The notes under the pieces are model-generated. The model was given only the letters and a program-made list of their open reading frames with translations, was not told the origin of the DNA and did no database searches. A stretch of DNA of 64,000 nucleotides from Phycisphaeraceae bacterium (GTDB taxonomy: Bacteria > Planctomycetota > Phycisphaerae > Phycisphaerales > Phycisphaeraceae): contig JADZCR010000017.1 of the NCBI GenBank assembly GCA_020851465.1, positions 186,001 to 250,000 of the forward strand. The letters run 5' to 3'. Positions 3,984-23,553 of this stretch are shown in pieces (the stretch's first letter is position 1; every line of letters begins with the position of its first letter). Made by a program: the position numbers and the translations under genes.

Positions 3984-5324
3984 GTGCGGACCATCGCGAT
4001 CATCAATCAAAAAGGCGGTTGCGGCAAGACAACCGTTTCCATCAACCTCGCGGCAGTCATGGCATCCATGGGGCGCAAGACCCTGCTGGTGGACATGGAC
4101 CCGCAATCCCACTGCGCTCTGGGGCTGGCGGTGCCCGAAGCGCAATTGGAACGCTCCATCGGCGACATGCTGCGAGCAGGCCTCGATGGAACACTCGCTT
4201 TCGGCGATACCGTCTGGCAGATCTCGCGCAGCCTCGACCTTTCCCCCAGCACGATGTCGCTGGCGGGCATCGAGGCTGAGCTGAGCACCGCACCCGACAA
4301 GGACCGCCGCCTGGCGCAGTTGCTCAGCACCGTCGCTGACCAGTACGAGTTCTGCATCATTGACTGCCCGCCGTCGATCGGCCTGCTGACATTCAACGCG
4401 CTCCGCGCTGCGGACGAGGTGATTATCCCCGTCGAAACCGGCTATTTTTCGATGCAGGGTTCGGTTCGTCAGAAAGCAACGATCGAGATGCTCGCCCACC
4501 GAGCCGGGCACAGAGTCCGCTTCCAGGTGCTGGCGACGATGTACGACGTGCGCACGAAGCTGGCGCGCGAGATTCTTTCTGAGCTGCGCCGCCATTTCGG
4601 GGACAAGCTCCTGCCGGTCGTCATCAACTTCAATTCCAAGCTCAAAGAGGCTGCGAGCTTTGGCCAGCCGATCACGGAATATGATCCAGCCAGCCGGGGT
4701 ATGGCGGACTTTGAAAAGCTCGCCAACTGGCTGCTGGCGAATCCGCCGCAACCGGCAACGCAGGCAGAGGGTGCCGACACAACCGATCAACCCGCCGCCG
4801 CGACCAATCCTGCGCTGTCCCGTGCTGCCGAGCTGGTCGAGCGAGCCCGCGCTCTGGCGTCGCGTACCGCAGCACTGGCGGCCAAGATTTCCCATGATCC
4901 TGACGTGATCGCCGAAAACGAAATCGAAACGCTCGTCGCCCCGCCGGAAACTCCCGCCGATTTCAAGCCCGTCACCGTTTCGGGTGAGATTCCGCTTCCG
5001 ACGGTGGAGGACAAACTCGCCCGGATTTACGGCGTGCGTGCGACATCGCAGGGGCTTCTCTTTGTGCAGCCGCTGCCGCAGGCCAAAGAGGTTACCGTGG
5101 CAGGTGACTTCAACGGCTGGTCGCCTGTCGCGACACCGCTGAAGCGTGATGAACGACTCGGCGTCTGGCAGGCGTGCATTCCGTTGCCGCCGGGACGCTA
5201 TCGTTACCGCATAGTCGTCGATGGTGCATGGATGCGGGATGCTTTTAATAATTACGTCGAGGCCAACCCTTTCGGCGAGTTGAATAATGTGGTCGAGATC
5301 GCCGCGGAAATCGCGGTGGGTTGA
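3984..5324 (+). CDS. ParA/MinD-like ATPase fused to a C-terminal CBM48/AMPK-type glycan-binding domain
   Basis: The N-terminal half is a ParA-type ATPase. It has a deviant Walker A, KGGCGKTT, at residues 10-17, a second motif in TLLVDMDPQSHCALG, and Walker B CIIDCPPSIG. Such ATPases form nucleotide-dependent dimers that position DNA, protein complexes or organelles. After an Ala/Pro-rich linker, residues about 356-440 read as an early-set CBM48/AMPK-beta domain, with VTVAGDFNGW followed by GRYRYRIVVDGAW, the fold used to bind glycogen or starch-like glucans. I chose the GTG at 3984 because it begins MRTIAIINQKGG, as ParA proteins do; an upstream frame extension looks non-coding. A partner gene follows 75 bases later on the same strand. 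The cargo is unknown; targeting to glycogen or a glycan-coated structure is inference. Confidence 0.85.
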   Translation: MRTIAIINQKGGCGKTTVSINLAAVMASMGRKTLLVDMDPQSHCALGLAVPEAQLERSIGDMLRAGLDGTLAFGDTVWQISRSLDLSPSTMSLAGIEAELSTAPDKDRRLAQLLSTVADQYEFCIIDCPPSIGLLTFNALRAADEVIIPVETGYFSMQGSVRQKATIEMLAHRAGHRVRFQVLATMYDVRTKLAREILSELRRHFGDKLLPVVINFNSKLKEAASFGQPITEYDPASRGMADFEKLANWLLANPPQPATQAEGADTTDQPAAATNPALSRAAELVERARALASRTAALAAKISHDPDVIAENEIETLVAPPETPADFKPVTVSGEIPLPTVEDKLARIYGVRATSQGLLFVQPLPQAKEVTVAGDFNGWSPVATPLKRDERLGVWQACIPLPPGRYRYRIVVDGAWMRDAFNNYVEANPFGELNNVVEIAAEIAVG

Positions 5325-16399: not shown

Positions 16400-16568
16400 T
16401 CTCTGAATCAAACGCGCTGCCGTGGTGCGACGGACTGCCTGTTGTTTTCCGTTCGAGCCTATCATATTGCCGTGAATCGTCATGCTTTCCCGTTTGCTGA
16501 GACGGTTTCGACGGATCGAACGGGTGTGAAGCCTGTCGTCCACGGATGATGATTTCGGAGGTTTGCTC

Positions 16569-17544: not shown

Positions 17545-17868
17545 ATGAATATGCGAACCTCGTGGATCAAGCTGGCCGTCGCGATGATTTTGGTTGTCAC
17601 CTTGCTGAGCGTTGAATCCGGCGCGTGTCCGACCTGTGCCGAGAATCTGCCCAGTGCCGCCAGTGCGGAGGCGGATCGTGCCGCCGGCCTGCCGGATAAT
17701 CCTTCGGGGGCGTCTTCGCCGCAGTTGGCGGAGGGGTTTTACTACTCGATCCTTCTCATGCTCGCGATTCCCTACACGCTGGTGACCGTGGGGGGTGTGA
17801 TGATCTATTTCAAATTGCGAAAGAACGGCTTGGCGGAACAGGCCGCAGCAGCCCCGCCCCGCGCCTGA
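17545..17868 (+). CDS. Small exported membrane protein with CPTC motif
   Basis: 107 residues: signal peptide (about 1-27, IKLAVAMILVVTLLSVESGA) ending just before CPTC, a short Ala/Pro linker, then one membrane segment (about 65-87, YYSILLMLAIPYTLVTVGGVMIYFKLR) and a basic, Ala-rich end. The CxxC right after the cleavage zone could bind metal or form a disulphide. Both ATGs at 17545 and 17551 are possible. I do not recognise a named family. The last 12 codons and stop lie within a 112-bp sequence that is repeated 3.7 kb downstream (see the repeat entries), suggesting that this gene's 3' end served as an integration site. Confidence 0.65.
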   Translation: MNMRTSWIKLAVAMILVVTLLSVESGACPTCAENLPSAASAEADRAAGLPDNPSGASSPQLAEGFYYSILLMLAIPYTLVTVGGVMIYFKLRKNGLAEQAAAAPPRA

Positions 17869-17942
17869 TGACAGCTTTGCTTGTCGTCGATATTTTTCAG
17901 AGCACGCCCATCTAACGAATACCCGCAAGCAGAGGTCGCAGC
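17831..17942. repeat. Direct repeat, left copy (covers the 3' end of the CPTC gene)
   Basis: 112 bases, from TGGCGGAACAGG through GGTCGCAGC, that recur at 21588-21699 in the same orientation with five substitutions counted by eye and no gaps. It includes the last 12 codons and stop of the CPTC membrane protein plus 74 bases downstream. Sequence outside the repeat is unrelated between copies on either side. The arrangement is what an attL/attR pair, or a duplication that captured the intervening DNA, would look like. Confidence 0.9.
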
Positions 17943-18196
17943 CAGAGCATTCCCAATCCTTTCGCAGCGCACTTGTCGCATGTTTGACTTTGCGCCTCTG
18001 GCGAAGTGGGGCGTGTTTCGGCAGATCTCATGGCTCGCCGCTCTCACCGACACTTAACCGTAGTCGTCCGCCGATCCGCATCGGCTAGACTGCACTGTCG
18101 CGCCCGCCGCCTTGCCCCACACCTGGAGTCCCGGCTATGCCCTCCGCCCAGCGCCGCCAAGAGCAGTTCTTCGTCACGATTGCCGTTGGCGGACGG
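17943..18196. other. Intergenic stretch at the left end of the island
   Basis: No supported gene. An ATG at 18137 (MPSAQRRQEQFFVTIAVGG, 24 codons to a stop at 18211) has a purine-rich CTGGAG upstream and could be the remnant of a truncated gene, perhaps the lost 5' part of the GH99-like fragment at 18.9 kb. The similarity is not strong enough to call. No terminator hairpin with a T-run was seen. Confidence 0.4.
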
Positions 18197-18775
18197 CTAT
18201 TTGTGCTTTGAGAGCGACATGAAGAAGATCATGCCCATGACAATCGCATACCACACGACGGAACCGACGAGTAACAACAGGCCGGAGCGTTTCCTCCTTG
18301 TGATAAGATTTACGATTCCCCATGGGAATGCAACGTACGGGGCGATGATGATGAACATCCAATGATACCAGCGAATCGTGCCGCGAGGCATTCCATCTTC
18401 AACACTGACCACTTGGGCCGGGGGAACATCAATAGCACTCCTGCCAAGCTCCTCAACGGATCGCTTGAGACTGCTATTCTTCACAAGGCAGATGACCACG
18501 TAAATCAGCAGCACGATTCCGATGGGGTTCGGAACGAACCCCTGGCCTTGGGATAGGACAAATCCGAGGTAGGCGACATTTCCGAGCAGAAGAAGCCAAT
18601 AGACGACAACAGTCGAGGTCGCCAGAGGATAGCGGAACTCCGTGTTGCAGGAAGGACATGGAATTCGTGCGAATCCCATGAAACTGCGCTTTGGCTTCCC
18701 GCTCATCCTGACCGGTTGTTTGCATTGCGGGCACACATAGGTGGAGGCGGCGCCGGAGCTCGTTTCGGTGGTCAT
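18197..18775 (-). CDS. Zinc-ribbon membrane protein of unknown function
   Basis: 192 residues. The N-terminal 50 residues hold two CxxC pairs (YVCPQCKQP and IPCPSCNTEF), a zinc ribbon. They are followed by two closely spaced membrane segments (VVVYWLLLLGNVAYLGFVL and IGIVLLIYVVICLV), a cytoplasmic-like loop of about 35 residues, and two more segments near the C-terminus (MFIIIAPYVAFPWGIVNL and LLLLVGSVVWYAIVMGMIFF). GGAGG lies 5 bases before the ATG. The gene is noticeably AT-richer than its chromosomal neighbours, in keeping with acquired DNA. It lies head-to-head with the GH99-like remnant inside the repeat-bounded island. Function cannot be assigned. Confidence 0.75.
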   Translation of the reverse strand: MTTETSSGAASTYVCPQCKQPVRMSGKPKRSFMGFARIPCPSCNTEFRYPLATSTVVVYWLLLLGNVAYLGFVLSQGQGFVPNPIGIVLLIYVVICLVKNSSLKRSVEELGRSAIDVPPAQVVSVEDGMPRGTIRWYHWMFIIIAPYVAFPWGIVNLITRRKRSGLLLLVGSVVWYAIVMGMIFFMSLSKHK

Positions 18776-18871
18776 TGTGCCTCCAAGCGTATAACCATAC
18801 ATTTTCCTGGTTGGACTCCAGCCCGCGACCATCGCGGGCCATTGGGCACAGTTTACCACGCAATTCCTCTC

Positions 18872-19339
18872 GGAGACCGCTGCATCGCCGACGCCGGCTT
18901 CGCCAGCACTGGCAACTACAACATCGTCAGCACGCCGAAGGTCTCGGACAACTTCACGATGCAGTACGACGACCTCATCGAGCAGCACCAGGCATACTGG
19001 CACGAGATGGCGCAGACCGCGCTGCCCAACCCGCCGATCGTCACTATGGGCTGGGACGTTACAGCGCGGTGCGATCCCAGCCTGCCCTGGCCGTTCCCTC
19101 CCGATCCGCGGACCGGCCGCCACGACTACCCGTACTGTCCCATCGTCGTCGGCAACACCCCGGACAAGTTCCGTCGGCTCTGTGAGCTGGCCCGCAAACA
19201 GGCGCAGGAACACCAGCTGCGCTTCAACGCCGTGTTCATCAACTCCTGGAATGAGTGGACAGAGTCCAGCTACCTTCTGCCTGAGAAGCGCACCGGTCTG
19301 GCGTATGTCGAAGCCGTCAAGGCGGCACTGGGAGACTAA
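18872..19339 (+). pseudogene. C-terminal fragment of a GH99-like/WbsX-type glycosidase domain
   Basis: About 155 residues in one open frame, beginning within the protein and ending at a normal stop. NAVFINSWNEWTESSYLLP is the strong hallmark of the GH99-like/WbsX domain found with polysaccharide synthesis or hydrolysis enzymes. TMGWDVTARCDPSLPWPFPPD and NYNIVSTPKVSDNF also fit. Members are normally over 300 residues, and no start codon or N-terminal half is visible: the frame runs upstream into sequence antisense to the zinc-ribbon gene's 5' end. I read it as a truncated relic, with the break near 18.78-18.87 kb. Confidence 0.65.
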
Positions 19340-19394
19340 TTTCAGAACGGCAAGCTGAGGACCGCTCCGCTACCGGGCGAAGGTATGATTTTTA

Positions 19395-19422
19395 CGGTGA
19401 GTGAAGATCGGTGAGTGAAGAT
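19395..19422. repeat. Tandem duplication of a 14-base unit
   Basis: Two perfect head-to-tail copies of CGGTGAGTGAAGAT, about 95 bases before the DUF262 gene. Probably replication slippage; a regulatory role is possible but not indicated. Confidence 0.8.
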
Positions 19423-19514
19423 CAGAGAACCGCCGCGGGTAAATCGCCCATCCTGCTCATTTCCCAAGTGGAATCGGCGCGTGACGAAGGCACCTTGGGT
19501 TAGAAGGAAACCAG

Positions 19515-21389
19515 ATGTTTGACTCGACGAAAGAAGACCTCAAAGACATCCTTCGCAAAGCGGATGAAGGCAAGCTGCAACTTCCCGACTTTCAGCGCGA
19601 TTACGTGTGGCTCGATGAGGATGTGCGAAGCCTGATCGCGTCGATTTGCAAGGGATTCCCTGTTGGGGCGTTGCTGACTCTCGAAGCCGGTAGTGAAGTC
19701 AGGTTCAAACCACGTTCGTTGGCGGGCGTCGATGCGGCGTCTCACGATCCCGAAGAACTGCTGCTCGACGGCCAGCAACGAGTCACATCGCTGTATCAGG
19801 CGACTTATTCCAAGAAGCCCGTGCGTACACGTTTGAGCAAGAAGGTCGAAATCGAGCGGTACTACTACTTGGACATCAAAAAGTCGGTCAACGATACCGC
19901 CGACCTGCTCGATGCGATCGAGGGTGTGCCTGCTGACCGCATCAGGCGGACGAACTTCGGCAAAGAAATCGTGCTCGATCTTTCCTCCCGCGAGCGCGAG
20001 TACGAGCACGATATGTTTCCCCTCAATCTCACATTTGACAGCAAGGATTGGTTTTTTGGCTGGCGCGACTATTGGAAGCCCCGAGGCCGGGATGTGGTCG
20101 ATTTGGAGAAGAAGTTCTACAAGCAAGTCGTGGAGATGATCGAGTGGTACGAAATGCCCATTATCCGACTCGACAAGCGCAACAGCCGTGAGGCGATTTG
20201 CCTTGTTTTTGAAAAGGTTAACGTCGGAGGGAAAAAGCTCGACCCGTTTGAGCTGCTCACCGCCATCTACGCCGCCGATAATTTTGACCTTCGCGCCGCC
20301 TGGAATGGAGAACACAAAAAGTCCGGGCTTCAACAACGGCTTACAGACCATCAACGCAGACACGTTCTGGCCAGAATGGAAAGTACCCATTTCATGCAGG
20401 CGTGTACGTTGCTCCACACGCGTGAAGTCCGATCACGCCGCGTGCAAGAGGGAGCCAAGGGCAAAGACCTCCCGCCGGTACTTTGCAACCGCGACGCGAT
20501 GCTGGCTCTGCCGCTCACTGCCTTCAAAAAGCATGTAGATACTTTGGAGGAAAGCTTCATGCTGGCGGCTGCGTTTCTAAATGAGCAAAAGATCATCTCC
20601 AGTCGGGATGTCCCATACCCGCAGCAGATTGTGACCCTCGCCGCCATCTTTGCTGCGCTCGATTCCAAGGCGCAGACTGTGCCCGCCAAGGGAAAGATTA
20701 CAGATTGGTTCTGGGCTGGCGCGCTTGGCGAACTATACGGGACAGGCGCGGAAACCATCATGGCGAGAGATTTCATGGAGCTTGTCGAGTGGATCGGCAA
20801 CGATGGAGAACAGCCGCGCACTTTATCAGAGGCGGTATTTCAGCAGGATCGCCTTCGGTCGCTTCGCGGCAGATTGGCCGCAGCCTACAAGGCCATTCAC
20901 GCCTTACTGATGCGACGCGGCTGCCTCGACTTCATTAACGGGAATCCGTTTGAGCTTATGACGTTTTTCAATCAAAAGATTGACGTCCATCACATTTTTC
21001 CGGAAAAGTGGTGCAAGGACCACGAAATCGATAAGAAGGTTTACGACAGCATCATCAACAAAACGCCTCTCTCGACGAAATCCAATCAAATCATCGGTGG
21101 GAATGCACCATCGATCTATTTGAGAAAAATTGAGACCAGCACCGGCATTTCTCCCGCAAAGCTCGATGATATTCTTCGTTCCCACCTCATCGAGCCGCGA
21201 TTTCTTCGTTCAGATGATTTTGAGGGATTTTATTCCGCTCGGACTCAAGCTCTCTCGGAACTCATCGGGAGCGCAATGGGCAAGCCGGTGGTGAACACCC
21301 ACGGTTCCAACGAACCCGAAATCGAAGTTGACGAAACCTCCGACGAGGAATCTGATGAAGAACTCGTTGATGCCGACACGGAGGAATGA
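19515..21389 (+). CDS. GmrSD-like DUF262/HNH protein (type IV restriction-type)
   Basis: 624 residues. The N-terminal DUF262 (GmrS-like) domain has QLPDFQRDYVW at 22-32 and the signature LLDGQQRVTSL, with the DGQQR at 85-89, which in the family binds and hydrolyses nucleotide triphosphates. The C-terminal region carries an HNH/DUF1524-like nuclease site, DVHHIFPEKW (H492, H493), followed by N515 and NQIIGGNAPSIYL. The middle is helical, and an acidic tail ends the protein. In the family (GmrSD, BrxU, SspE relatives) such proteins restrict modified or unmodified phage DNA; that role here is inference. Downstream lies a methyltransferase remnant, and the whole stretch is bounded by direct repeats. 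The start ATG follows AGAAGGAAACC. The protein looks intact. Confidence 0.87.
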   Translation: MFDSTKEDLKDILRKADEGKLQLPDFQRDYVWLDEDVRSLIASICKGFPVGALLTLEAGSEVRFKPRSLAGVDAASHDPEELLLDGQQRVTSLYQATYSKKPVRTRLSKKVEIERYYYLDIKKSVNDTADLLDAIEGVPADRIRRTNFGKEIVLDLSSREREYEHDMFPLNLTFDSKDWFFGWRDYWKPRGRDVVDLEKKFYKQVVEMIEWYEMPIIRLDKRNSREAICLVFEKVNVGGKKLDPFELLTAIYAADNFDLRAAWNGEHKKSGLQQRLTDHQRRHVLARMESTHFMQACTLLHTREVRSRRVQEGAKGKDLPPVLCNRDAMLALPLTAFKKHVDTLEESFMLAAAFLNEQKIISSRDVPYPQQIVTLAAIFAALDSKAQTVPAKGKITDWFWAGALGELYGTGAETIMARDFMELVEWIGNDGEQPRTLSEAVFQQDRLRSLRGRLAAAYKAIHALLMRRGCLDFINGNPFELMTFFNQKIDVHHIFPEKWCKDHEIDKKVYDSIINKTPLSTKSNQIIGGNAPSIYLRKIETSTGISPAKLDDILRSHLIEPRFLRSDDFEGFYSARTQALSELIGSAMGKPVVNTHGSNEPEIEVDETSDEESDEELVDADTEE

Positions 21390-21397
21390 ACGGACCT

Positions 21398-21536
21398 ATG
21401 GCAAAGACTCAAGCCAAAGCATCTGAGAAAAATGACAACTAAGACATAAGCTGAAACATTCAAGCACGATGCCGACAAGCGAAAGAACATTCCCCCCGCG
21501 GAGTTTCAGTCCTTCGTCAAGCCGGAAGATCAATAA
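21398..21536 (+). pseudogene. Remnant of the N-terminus of a DNA methyltransferase
   Basis: An ATG at 21398 opens MAKTQAKASEKNDN and stops after 14 codons. In another frame (21456-21536) the sequence reads TFKHDADKRKNIPPAEFQSF before a stop. A K(H)xDxKRxNIPxAExxS pattern is the conserved N-terminal opening of a large family of restriction-associated site-specific DNA methyltransferases. I take it as a decayed or truncated methyltransferase gene: the two pieces need a frameshift, and the body of the gene (several hundred codons) is absent before the right-hand repeat starts at 21588. The first 8 codons overlap nothing; the gene would have followed the DUF262 gene by 8 bases, as in an operon. 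Confidence 0.5.
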
Positions 21537-21587
21537 CCCCGGCCCGTGAGATACCCATGCAACGCCGACCTGTCCCCGCAGATCGCC

Positions 21588-21699
21588 TGGCGGAACAGGC
21601 CGCAGCAGCCCAGCCCCGCGCCTGATGACAGCTTTGCTTGTCGTCGATATTTTTCAGAGTACACCCATCTAACGAATGCCCGCAAGCAGGGGTCGCAGC
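21588..21699. repeat. Direct repeat, right copy
   Basis: Second copy of the 112-base sequence at 17831-17942, same orientation, five mismatches by eye. It still encodes the LAEQAAAAQPRA-stop tail of the CPTC membrane protein, but with no gene in front of it, so it is the duplicated (non-functional) side of the pair. It ends 93 bases before the 3' end of a tRNA-Gln gene. Confidence 0.9.
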
Positions 21700-21792
21700 T
21701 ACACAACCGGGTCAGATATGGTGTGTCACGGAATCGACAGAATAGTCATCGTGTCCGCTGGCTTATTCGCGGATATTCAGAAAGGCTGTTAA

Positions 21793-21863
21793 CTGGGGAT
21801 CTAGGATTTGAACCTAGACTAACTGGTTCAGAGCCAGTCGTGCTACCGTTACACCAATCCCCA
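21793..21863 (-). tRNA. tRNA-Gln (anticodon CTG)
   Basis: 71 bases folding as a full cloverleaf. The acceptor stem is TGGGGAT/ATCCCCA with G as discriminator, the D-arm contains AACGGTAG, the anticodon stem is ACTGG/CCAGT with loop CTCTGAA (anticodon CTG), and the T-arm is CTAGG-TTCAAAT-CCTAG. The CCA end is not encoded. U1-A72 and G73 are usual for glutamine tRNAs. Confidence 0.95.
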
Positions 21864-22050
21864 AACGCTCCCGCCTGATCGAGAAAATCATCGGCGAAAG
21901 CAGGGGAATCGTATGACAACCGGGGGCTTCCCGTCAACCTTGTCGAGGTTGGCCGGCGTTCAGGCATTTGGCTGCGGCTGCCTGCTCCGCGGTCGAGTGT
22001 GTTTTCCGATTACGCTATCGCAGGTTTGTTCGTTCAGAGGATTGAGTTCT

Positions 22051-23553
22051 ATGTTTCGATGGTATTTCGTTGTTCTGGTGGTTTGTGGTTTGTCCTGGGC
22101 CGCGGCGCGGGGCGAGGATGCGCCAACGATGGCCGTGCGCCCGTCGGCTGATGGGAAGCAGGTTCACATCGAGCTGGCGGAGTTGCCGGCCATCAGCTCG
22201 CGGCTGCTTGAGTTGGTTGACCCTGCGACGGGCGAAGTGCTGCGGACTCTCTGGGCGGGTCGCTCGCGGTCGAGTCAGACGGTGGTGCTCAGTCACGCGA
22301 TGAAGCTTGCGCCGAGCCGTTACATCCTCCGCTATCGTGACGGCCTGTCGTTGACATACGTGGATAAACTCGACGGCCCGGTTAACGGCCGTTGGACCAA
22401 TCCATGTGAAATCGCGTTCACCCATGACGCGATCTTCGTCATGGAGGAAGGCAACGACATCGGCGAGTTACCCGAAGAAATCATCCGTAAACGTACATGG
22501 ACTCTCACCAACGGCCGGCGATTTACCGGCGGCTACTACCGCATCGGCAGCGACACCGTGGTCATGAGCGACAAACGCAATGCGCACATTCGTTTTCGAC
22601 TCAAGGAGTTCACCCCTGCGGATCAGGAGCAGCTCAGAGACCTCGAACGCCTGCGGCTGGAGTACATCGCAAAGACCACACTCAACGGCGGGTCGATCTG
22701 GAAACTCTCACGCGACGGCAAGGTCGATCCGACCTTCGGTGAGGCGGGCCGCATCAGACTCTGGCAGGATCGGAACGCAGCCATCCGGTCATTTACGCTG
22801 AGCAGTGACGGAAAAATTTTTACCAGTTCGGTCTATCACGAAGCCATCGCTTACGATCCAAACGGGCAGCGGCTCAAGTTTGCGGTCGGCGGGTGGGATA
22901 ACCAGCCATTCGGCTCAAAGGCGACAGGCTGGGTCAACACGCTCGTGATGGGGCCGGGCGACCGACTCTATTTCCCTACGGCCTACGGCATGTTGCGCGT
23001 GTACGACGCGACCAAGCCCGGATTCACCGGCATTCTGTACTCGATCAAGTTGTCGGAGGATGTCGGCCTCTCGCCCTGCATGACGCTTGATGGCACGGGC
23101 AATCTTTATCTCGTCAGCAGACAGAATTCGATTACCAAATATTTCGACAACGGCCAGGAATTCAAACGTCTCTGGAACCAGTCCGCGCCGGGTGGCGTCG
23201 CACGGCTGACGGGTCCGAGCTTTTCCAACGGTCTCCTCTGGGTTGCGGACCACGGCCCAAGCAAAGGGCCGTACTGGGACAGCGGCGGAGGCGGGGAGGT
23301 GCTGCTCTTCTGGGACGATGGCGACAGCGCACGACTGATCGACCGTTTCGGCAAAGTTGGCGATGCTGCGGACAAGCCGGAGTTCATGGATCCCAGCGCG
23401 GTGAAGATGACGCCGGACCATCAGTATTTGTGGGTCGTCGAGGACGGACACCATTACGTTGAAGGCCCCAGCGGCGGAGCGCGGATCCGGAAATTTCAAA
23501 TCACCGCCCAGCAGACGCAGGAGGCGGAGCTGGACCTGACGAGCTGGAAATAA
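22051..23553 (+). CDS. Exported beta-propeller-like protein, function unknown
   Basis: Signal peptide at residues 1-23 (MFRWYFVVLVVCGLSWAAARG). After an N-terminal strand domain of about 100 residues (LLELVDPATGEVLRTLWAG), the remainder contains repeated blades of the type GSIWKLSRDGKVDPTFGEAG, DGKIFTSSVYHEAIAYDPNG, GDRLYFPTAYGMLRVYDAT and TGNLYLVSRQNSITKYFDN, as in NHL/SMP-30-type propellers. I set the start at ATG 22051, where the signal peptide begins (AGAGG upstream); the frame is open earlier but encodes nothing signal-like. 500 residues. The substrate is unknown, and no catalytic site is recognised. Confidence 0.65.
   Translation: MFRWYFVVLVVCGLSWAAARGEDAPTMAVRPSADGKQVHIELAELPAISSRLLELVDPATGEVLRTLWAGRSRSSQTVVLSHAMKLAPSRYILRYRDGLSLTYVDKLDGPVNGRWTNPCEIAFTHDAIFVMEEGNDIGELPEEIIRKRTWTLTNGRRFTGGYYRIGSDTVVMSDKRNAHIRFRLKEFTPADQEQLRDLERLRLEYIAKTTLNGGSIWKLSRDGKVDPTFGEAGRIRLWQDRNAAIRSFTLSSDGKIFTSSVYHEAIAYDPNGQRLKFAVGGWDNQPFGSKATGWVNTLVMGPGDRLYFPTAYGMLRVYDATKPGFTGILYSIKLSEDVGLSPCMTLDGTGNLYLVSRQNSITKYFDNGQEFKRLWNQSAPGGVARLTGPSFSNGLLWVADHGPSKGPYWDSGGGGEVLLFWDDGDSARLIDRFGKVGDAADKPEFMDPSAVKMTPDHQYLWVVEDGHHYVEGPSGGARIRKFQITAQQTQEAELDLTSWK

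Follow-up and report, generated by a model that had tools for sequence, protein, structure and literature searches.

A degraded res–GmrSD–mod remnant between 112-bp direct repeats at the 3′ end of a membrane-protein gene: a probable old insertion scar in a Phycisphaeraceae genome

Organization of the locus

The window analyzed here is a stretch of 64,000 nucleotides from a Phycisphaeraceae genome assembly (contig JADZCR010000017.1, positions 186,001 to 250,000). Within it, the end of the CPTC membrane-protein gene lies in a 112-bp sequence that recurs in direct orientation, with 3.6 kb separating the two copies. The features of this region are as follows (window coordinates):

17545-17868, + strand: 107-aa ORF encoding the CPTC membrane protein; this is the target gene
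17831-17942, + strand: left copy of the repeat, contiguous with intact CPTC
17866-17889, + strand: terminator-like hairpin and T-run located at the stop codon of CPTC (consensus match)
18197-18775, - strand: ORF for a 192-aa membrane protein with two CxxC pairs, no Pfam match
18864-19339 (left limit approximate), + strand: truncated C-terminus of a WbsX/GH99-like protein (PF14307)
19515-21389, + strand: intact GmrSD-family gene, 624 aa, DUF262 plus HNH-like C-terminus (PF03235, operon relatives, tree, BrxU-like fold)
21417-21557, + strand: N-terminal remnant of Mod, a type III-like methyltransferase (own-genome search with a related Mod, L052)
21588-21699, + strand: right copy of the repeat, a displaced end of CPTC
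21792-21864, - strand: tRNA-Gln(CTG), its 3′ end facing the island

The direct repeats thus mark both ends of the island, with CPTC complete at the left and its displaced end at the right. The left copy comprises the last 12 codons and the stop of CPTC, which ends at 17868, and 74 bp beyond. The hairpin is identical in both copies, the second lying at 21623-21646. With its T-run at the stop codon it looks like the terminator of CPTC, consensus matches of this type being no commoner here than in shuffled sequence. The right copy stops 92 bp short of tRNA-Gln; integration into that tRNA gene was considered and rejected, as the window contains no further copy of the tRNA 3′ end.

The cargo reported in the initial annotation was correctly listed: a zinc-ribbon membrane gene, a truncated GH99-like gene, a GmrSD-like gene and a methyltransferase remnant. 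The membrane protein gave a weak match to TIGR04104, below the cut-off. The WbsX fragment aligns to positions 291-350 of the 350 in the PF14307 profile, has no second copy in its own genome and found one weak match in 24 relatives. The GmrSD gene, the island's one convincing intact gene, has a GC content of ~53%, compared with 63.5% for the WbsX fragment (GC3 0.85) and ~60-64% for neighboring genes. The gene is rare in the phylum (8/392 sampled genomes). This rarity and composition, together with the membership of the gene in a known operon type (see below), bear out the earlier view that the cargo is accessory. The island shows no recombinase or transposase, in line with the earlier remark that it lacks an integrase, and none was seen when those window ORFs that reach 280 aa or more were inspected by eye.

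Several smaller observations were made in and around the island. Beside the membrane gene, positions 18133-18204 form a short reading frame, preceded by a credible ribosome site and start (MPSAQRRQEQFFVTIAVGGR...), that ends after ~24 codons, perhaps another cut-off gene start. A 546-aa ORF (21913-23553) encodes a predicted protein with no Pfam match, two paralogs in its own genome (40% and 35%) and no match in 40 relatives. The protein at 22051-23550, just beyond the island, likewise has no match in the 40 relatives and is unusable as a right-side anchor. On the left, CPTC homologs adjoin a homolog of the upstream gene at 16563 in three genomes (G011, G024 and G015), which have nothing downstream of CPTC in common with the window.

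The repeat pair

Exact alignment of the two copies confirmed the 112 bp with five substitutions and no gaps (95.5% identity), covering the last 12 CPTC codons, as first described; an alternative form of the alignment spans 115 bp with six substitutions. The pair is sharp-ended, the match extending into neither flank and leaving no fading similarity. Under a simple model, ~4e-47 such pairs would be expected by chance in the window, which is negligible. The 3.41-Mb assembly holds two copies of the repeat, both in the window. Dispersed copies, named in the initial annotation as a finding that would speak against an island, are thus absent, and a dispersed repeat family is rejected. A survey of 587 kb of the same genome, comprising all 270 kb of this contig and parts of three others, returned this as the sole pair of direct repeats with a length of 50 bp or more, above 90% identity and at most 30 kb apart.

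Other origins of the repeat and of the DNA between the copies were also examined. The 112-bp sequence has no match in Rfam, and the full repeat, folded as single-stranded DNA, does no better than its shuffles, so a structured or RNA-family repeat was discarded. A search of the own genome revealed no other copies of the island DNA, which eliminates its duplication from elsewhere in the genome. The island region has no DNA match to phages and only short matches to two plasmids, and the 26-bp core of the repeat has no exact match in viral contigs; as these searches gave no useful DNA match, phage or plasmid origin was rejected. Neither an empty site (40 relatives and the genome contig collection) nor a relative with both repeats and none of the intervening genes was found, the relatives searched not being close ones.

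The surviving gene and its source operon

The GmrSD-like protein scores 103.7 bits against PF03235. It carries DGQQR at residues 85-89 and a C-terminal HHIFP motif, invariant in 30 homologs except at I494, and its C-terminus has no Pfam match to DUF1524. At 103 near-invariant columns it departs in four, which is no excess given the range of 0-12 in 81 homologs. The predicted model has a mean pLDDT of 88. A Foldseek search with this model placed BrxU first (E 1.6e-13, whole-length) and SspE next, and a PDB sequence search retrieved BrxU only. Taken with the model, these features make it plausible that the survivor has remained a GmrSD-type nuclease; it would probably work alone against modified phage DNA. 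It resembles the type IV enzymes GmrSD and BrxU in being a single polypeptide with DGQQR in its DUF262 part and a putative HNH-like C-terminus, and BrxU is its best fold match. It differs in its low identity to BrxU (~15%), in having HHIFP instead of DHIYP, and in its ancestry in a res–mod operon.

That ancestry was traced through relatives of the protein at 61% and 58% identity, encoded by a pair of genomes from the same family. In both, the gene sits between a helicase-type Res and a Mod of 980-1010 aa. In L052, Res belongs by its matches to BPTD_3080 and PF04851, and Mod matches a PADLOC type III methyltransferase with 1387 bits. The complete units, BPTD_3080-type Res, DUF262 GmrSD-like protein and type III-like Mod, occupy L051:3624-13616 and L052:5026-12994; in L051 a GHKL-ATPase gene adjoins the unit. 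Such three-gene units occur in distant bacteria. About 20 of the 80 homologs from the genome contig collection have this context and the rest do not show it, some of them lying on contigs too short for the context to be read. In the GmrSD-family tree, the operon label switches at least eight times; the sister of the window protein is an operon copy (SH-aLRT 97), and the two fall within a clade of four planctomycete sequences.

Remains of the operon were identified in the window itself. A search of the own genome with the L052 Mod matched its residues 4-50 at 47% identity, interrupted by two TAA stops, directly behind the GmrSD gene, where Mod is cut to its first ~50 codons. The same search found no full-length Mod in the whole genome, which likewise has no match to Res. 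The type III-like three-gene operon is therefore incomplete here, with DUF262 intact, Mod a remnant and Res absent. The operon relatives, the position in the tree, the Mod remnant and the absence of Res and full-length Mod together argue that the island is best read as the ruin of a res–GmrSD–mod restriction–modification unit. Since Mod and WbsX are cut short and Res is gone, the present 3.6 kb is a leftover of deletion. This does not support the idea of a small, previously undescribed cargo island; of the two states that had been proposed, decayed or trans-mobilized, the losses in Mod, Res and WbsX favor decay, and the truncated contents speak against an intact island mobilized in trans.

The site thus documents the break-up of a restriction–modification operon in place, with a methyltransferase fragment beside the surviving nuclease gene, and suggests how solitary GmrSD genes arise.

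Comparable loci in other bacteria

An Arthrobacter locus (L106/L173) has a solitary GmrSD-family gene flanked by an intact dhaK and by a displaced 437-bp piece of the dhaK end; the name dhaK was read from the sequence rather than obtained by a family search. Two congeners (L179 and L185) have the same left flank set directly against a single dhaK end, an empty site. The two dhaK ends share 89% identity, a divergence similar to that between separate species, and they are not sisters in the tree (modest support). This divergence and placement suggest that a gene end was probably carried in with the incoming DNA. Displaced 3′-end pieces of dhaK, ~50-440 bp in length, also lie behind dhaK in several congeners (L173, L175-L179), with neighboring genes that differ among them; the 3′ side of dhaK is a recurrent insertion site in Arthrobacter, with no obvious integrase.

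A further solitary GmrSD-family gene, in a betaproteobacterial metagenome-assembled genome (L119), is flanked directly by a 149-bp repeat with 99% identity. Its copies, at 2648-2796 and 4987-5135, correspond to the 5′ end of an ABC-F-like gene, and in this metagenome assembly the repeat resembles a young in-situ duplication. Across the collection, long flanking repeats accompany 2 of 80 GmrSD homologs and 0.75% of control intervals, so they are not clearly enriched, and a link between GmrSD genes and such repeats is suggestive only.

Origin of the island

We consider it likely, with a probability of roughly 0.8, that the island is an insertion at the 3′ end of CPTC. This reading is supported by the unique and sharp-ended repeat pair with its gene end and hairpin, by the rare cargo and by the divergent composition. 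The site appears to be the scar of an old insertion, not a novel type of mobile element; the type of event is known and the example is new. The initial annotation had proposed an accessory insertion into a gene 3′ end with partial duplication of the target, and that part is supported. Site-specific integration at CPTC, which it had also invoked, is possible, and a long target duplication or an imported gene end fits as well.

As to how the second gene end came about, we give about even odds to its import. Foreign DNA carrying res, a GmrSD-like DUF262 gene and mod would have arrived at the CPTC 3′ end, bringing its own copy of the gene end with the terminator, and would have recombined at CPTC. 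The outcome would be a complete CPTC to the left of the island and a 112-bp gene end displaced to its right, an arrangement like that of e14 in icd, which also brings its own gene end. Later deletions may then have eliminated res, the greater part of mod and any recombinase that was present, and the WbsX piece and the membrane gene could have been gathered later or have belonged to the original cargo. The Arthrobacter empty site provides a parallel, and with the window it makes a concrete case for studying how such genes might enter chromosomes when no recombinase is present. Arthrobacter is, however, an analogue in a different phylum, and the modest tree support there applies to the parallel too. 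Further points against import are that no recombinase is seen, that the five differences are unrooted in a search of relatives that were not close and yielded no empty site, and that long repeats around GmrSD genes lack clear enrichment. The 5% divergence is equally explicable by later mutation of a duplication formed in situ.

The latter possibility is the strongest rival, although we regard it as less likely than an imported end. In this case, a replication or repair process would have copied ~112 bp upon insertion, and the copies, identical at birth, would have mutated afterwards; neither a recombinase nor an att site is required. Restriction–modification systems are reported to insert with long, variable target duplications of ~100 bp and no mobile element (PMC3874152, PMC3031569), and the window cargo is a restriction–modification remnant. 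The 149-bp betaproteobacterial repeat, with its 99% identity, is what a young duplication of this kind would leave, but it comes from a metagenome assembly. Against target duplication, the sole GmrSD case with an empty site, that of Arthrobacter, has non-sister ends at species-level divergence, and a duplication that takes in exactly a gene end and its terminator is a more usual result of gene-restoring integration.

An origin without any insertion, by tandem duplication of a CPTC-containing segment with later deletions and replacement of the genes lying between the two copies, appears unlikely. The space between the copies is indeed a patchwork of truncated pieces differing in composition, as such a history would produce. 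However, the second copy breaks off abruptly at its 112-bp limits, with no fading similarity at either end, more steps are required, and the 587 kb of surveyed genome contain no other such duplication. Finally, an intact, previously undescribed small mobile island with a recombinase supplied in trans is very improbable: direct repeats at both ends, an intact cargo gene and the lack of an integrase would suit it, but its contents are truncated, the genome has no further copy of the repeat, the 26-bp core of the repeat has no exact match in viral contigs, and the region matches no phage and has only short matches in two plasmids.

A broader reading would unite the window, the Arthrobacter dhaK locus and the betaproteobacterial ABC-F gene. 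Solitary GmrSD-family defense genes would move as small recombinase-free units joined to a host gene end and would thereby yield long imperfect direct repeats in unrelated bacteria; we think this improbable.

Relation to known systems

The e14 prophage of E. coli K-12 is likewise inserted at a gene 3′ end, that of icd, with the gene kept complete and a partial duplication, icdC. Its displaced imperfect gene end measures 165 bp with 12 exchanges (PMC11148124). Unlike the prophage e14, the island has no recombinase or phage gene left, and its cargo is a restriction–modification remnant. Compared with integrase-type islands at gene 3′ ends, the locus shares the repeats and the restored gene and has no visible recombinase gene inside the island. 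The long-target-duplication cases described by the Kobayashi group have in common with it a restriction–modification-derived cargo between direct repeats of ~100 bp and no mobile-element genes; they differ in that the two copies at CPTC are unlike at five bases and the cargo is reduced to the GmrSD gene.

The surviving gene also recalls the solitary restriction endonucleases of Ershova et al. 2012 (PMC3488263), whose toxicity argument concerns type II enzymes, in being a nuclease gene deprived of its methyltransferase. In contrast to those, the window gene still has the remnant of its lost methyltransferase attached. The tRNA-Gln gene, the hairpin present in both repeat copies and the source operon shared by the GmrSD gene and the Mod remnant are additions to the initial annotation.
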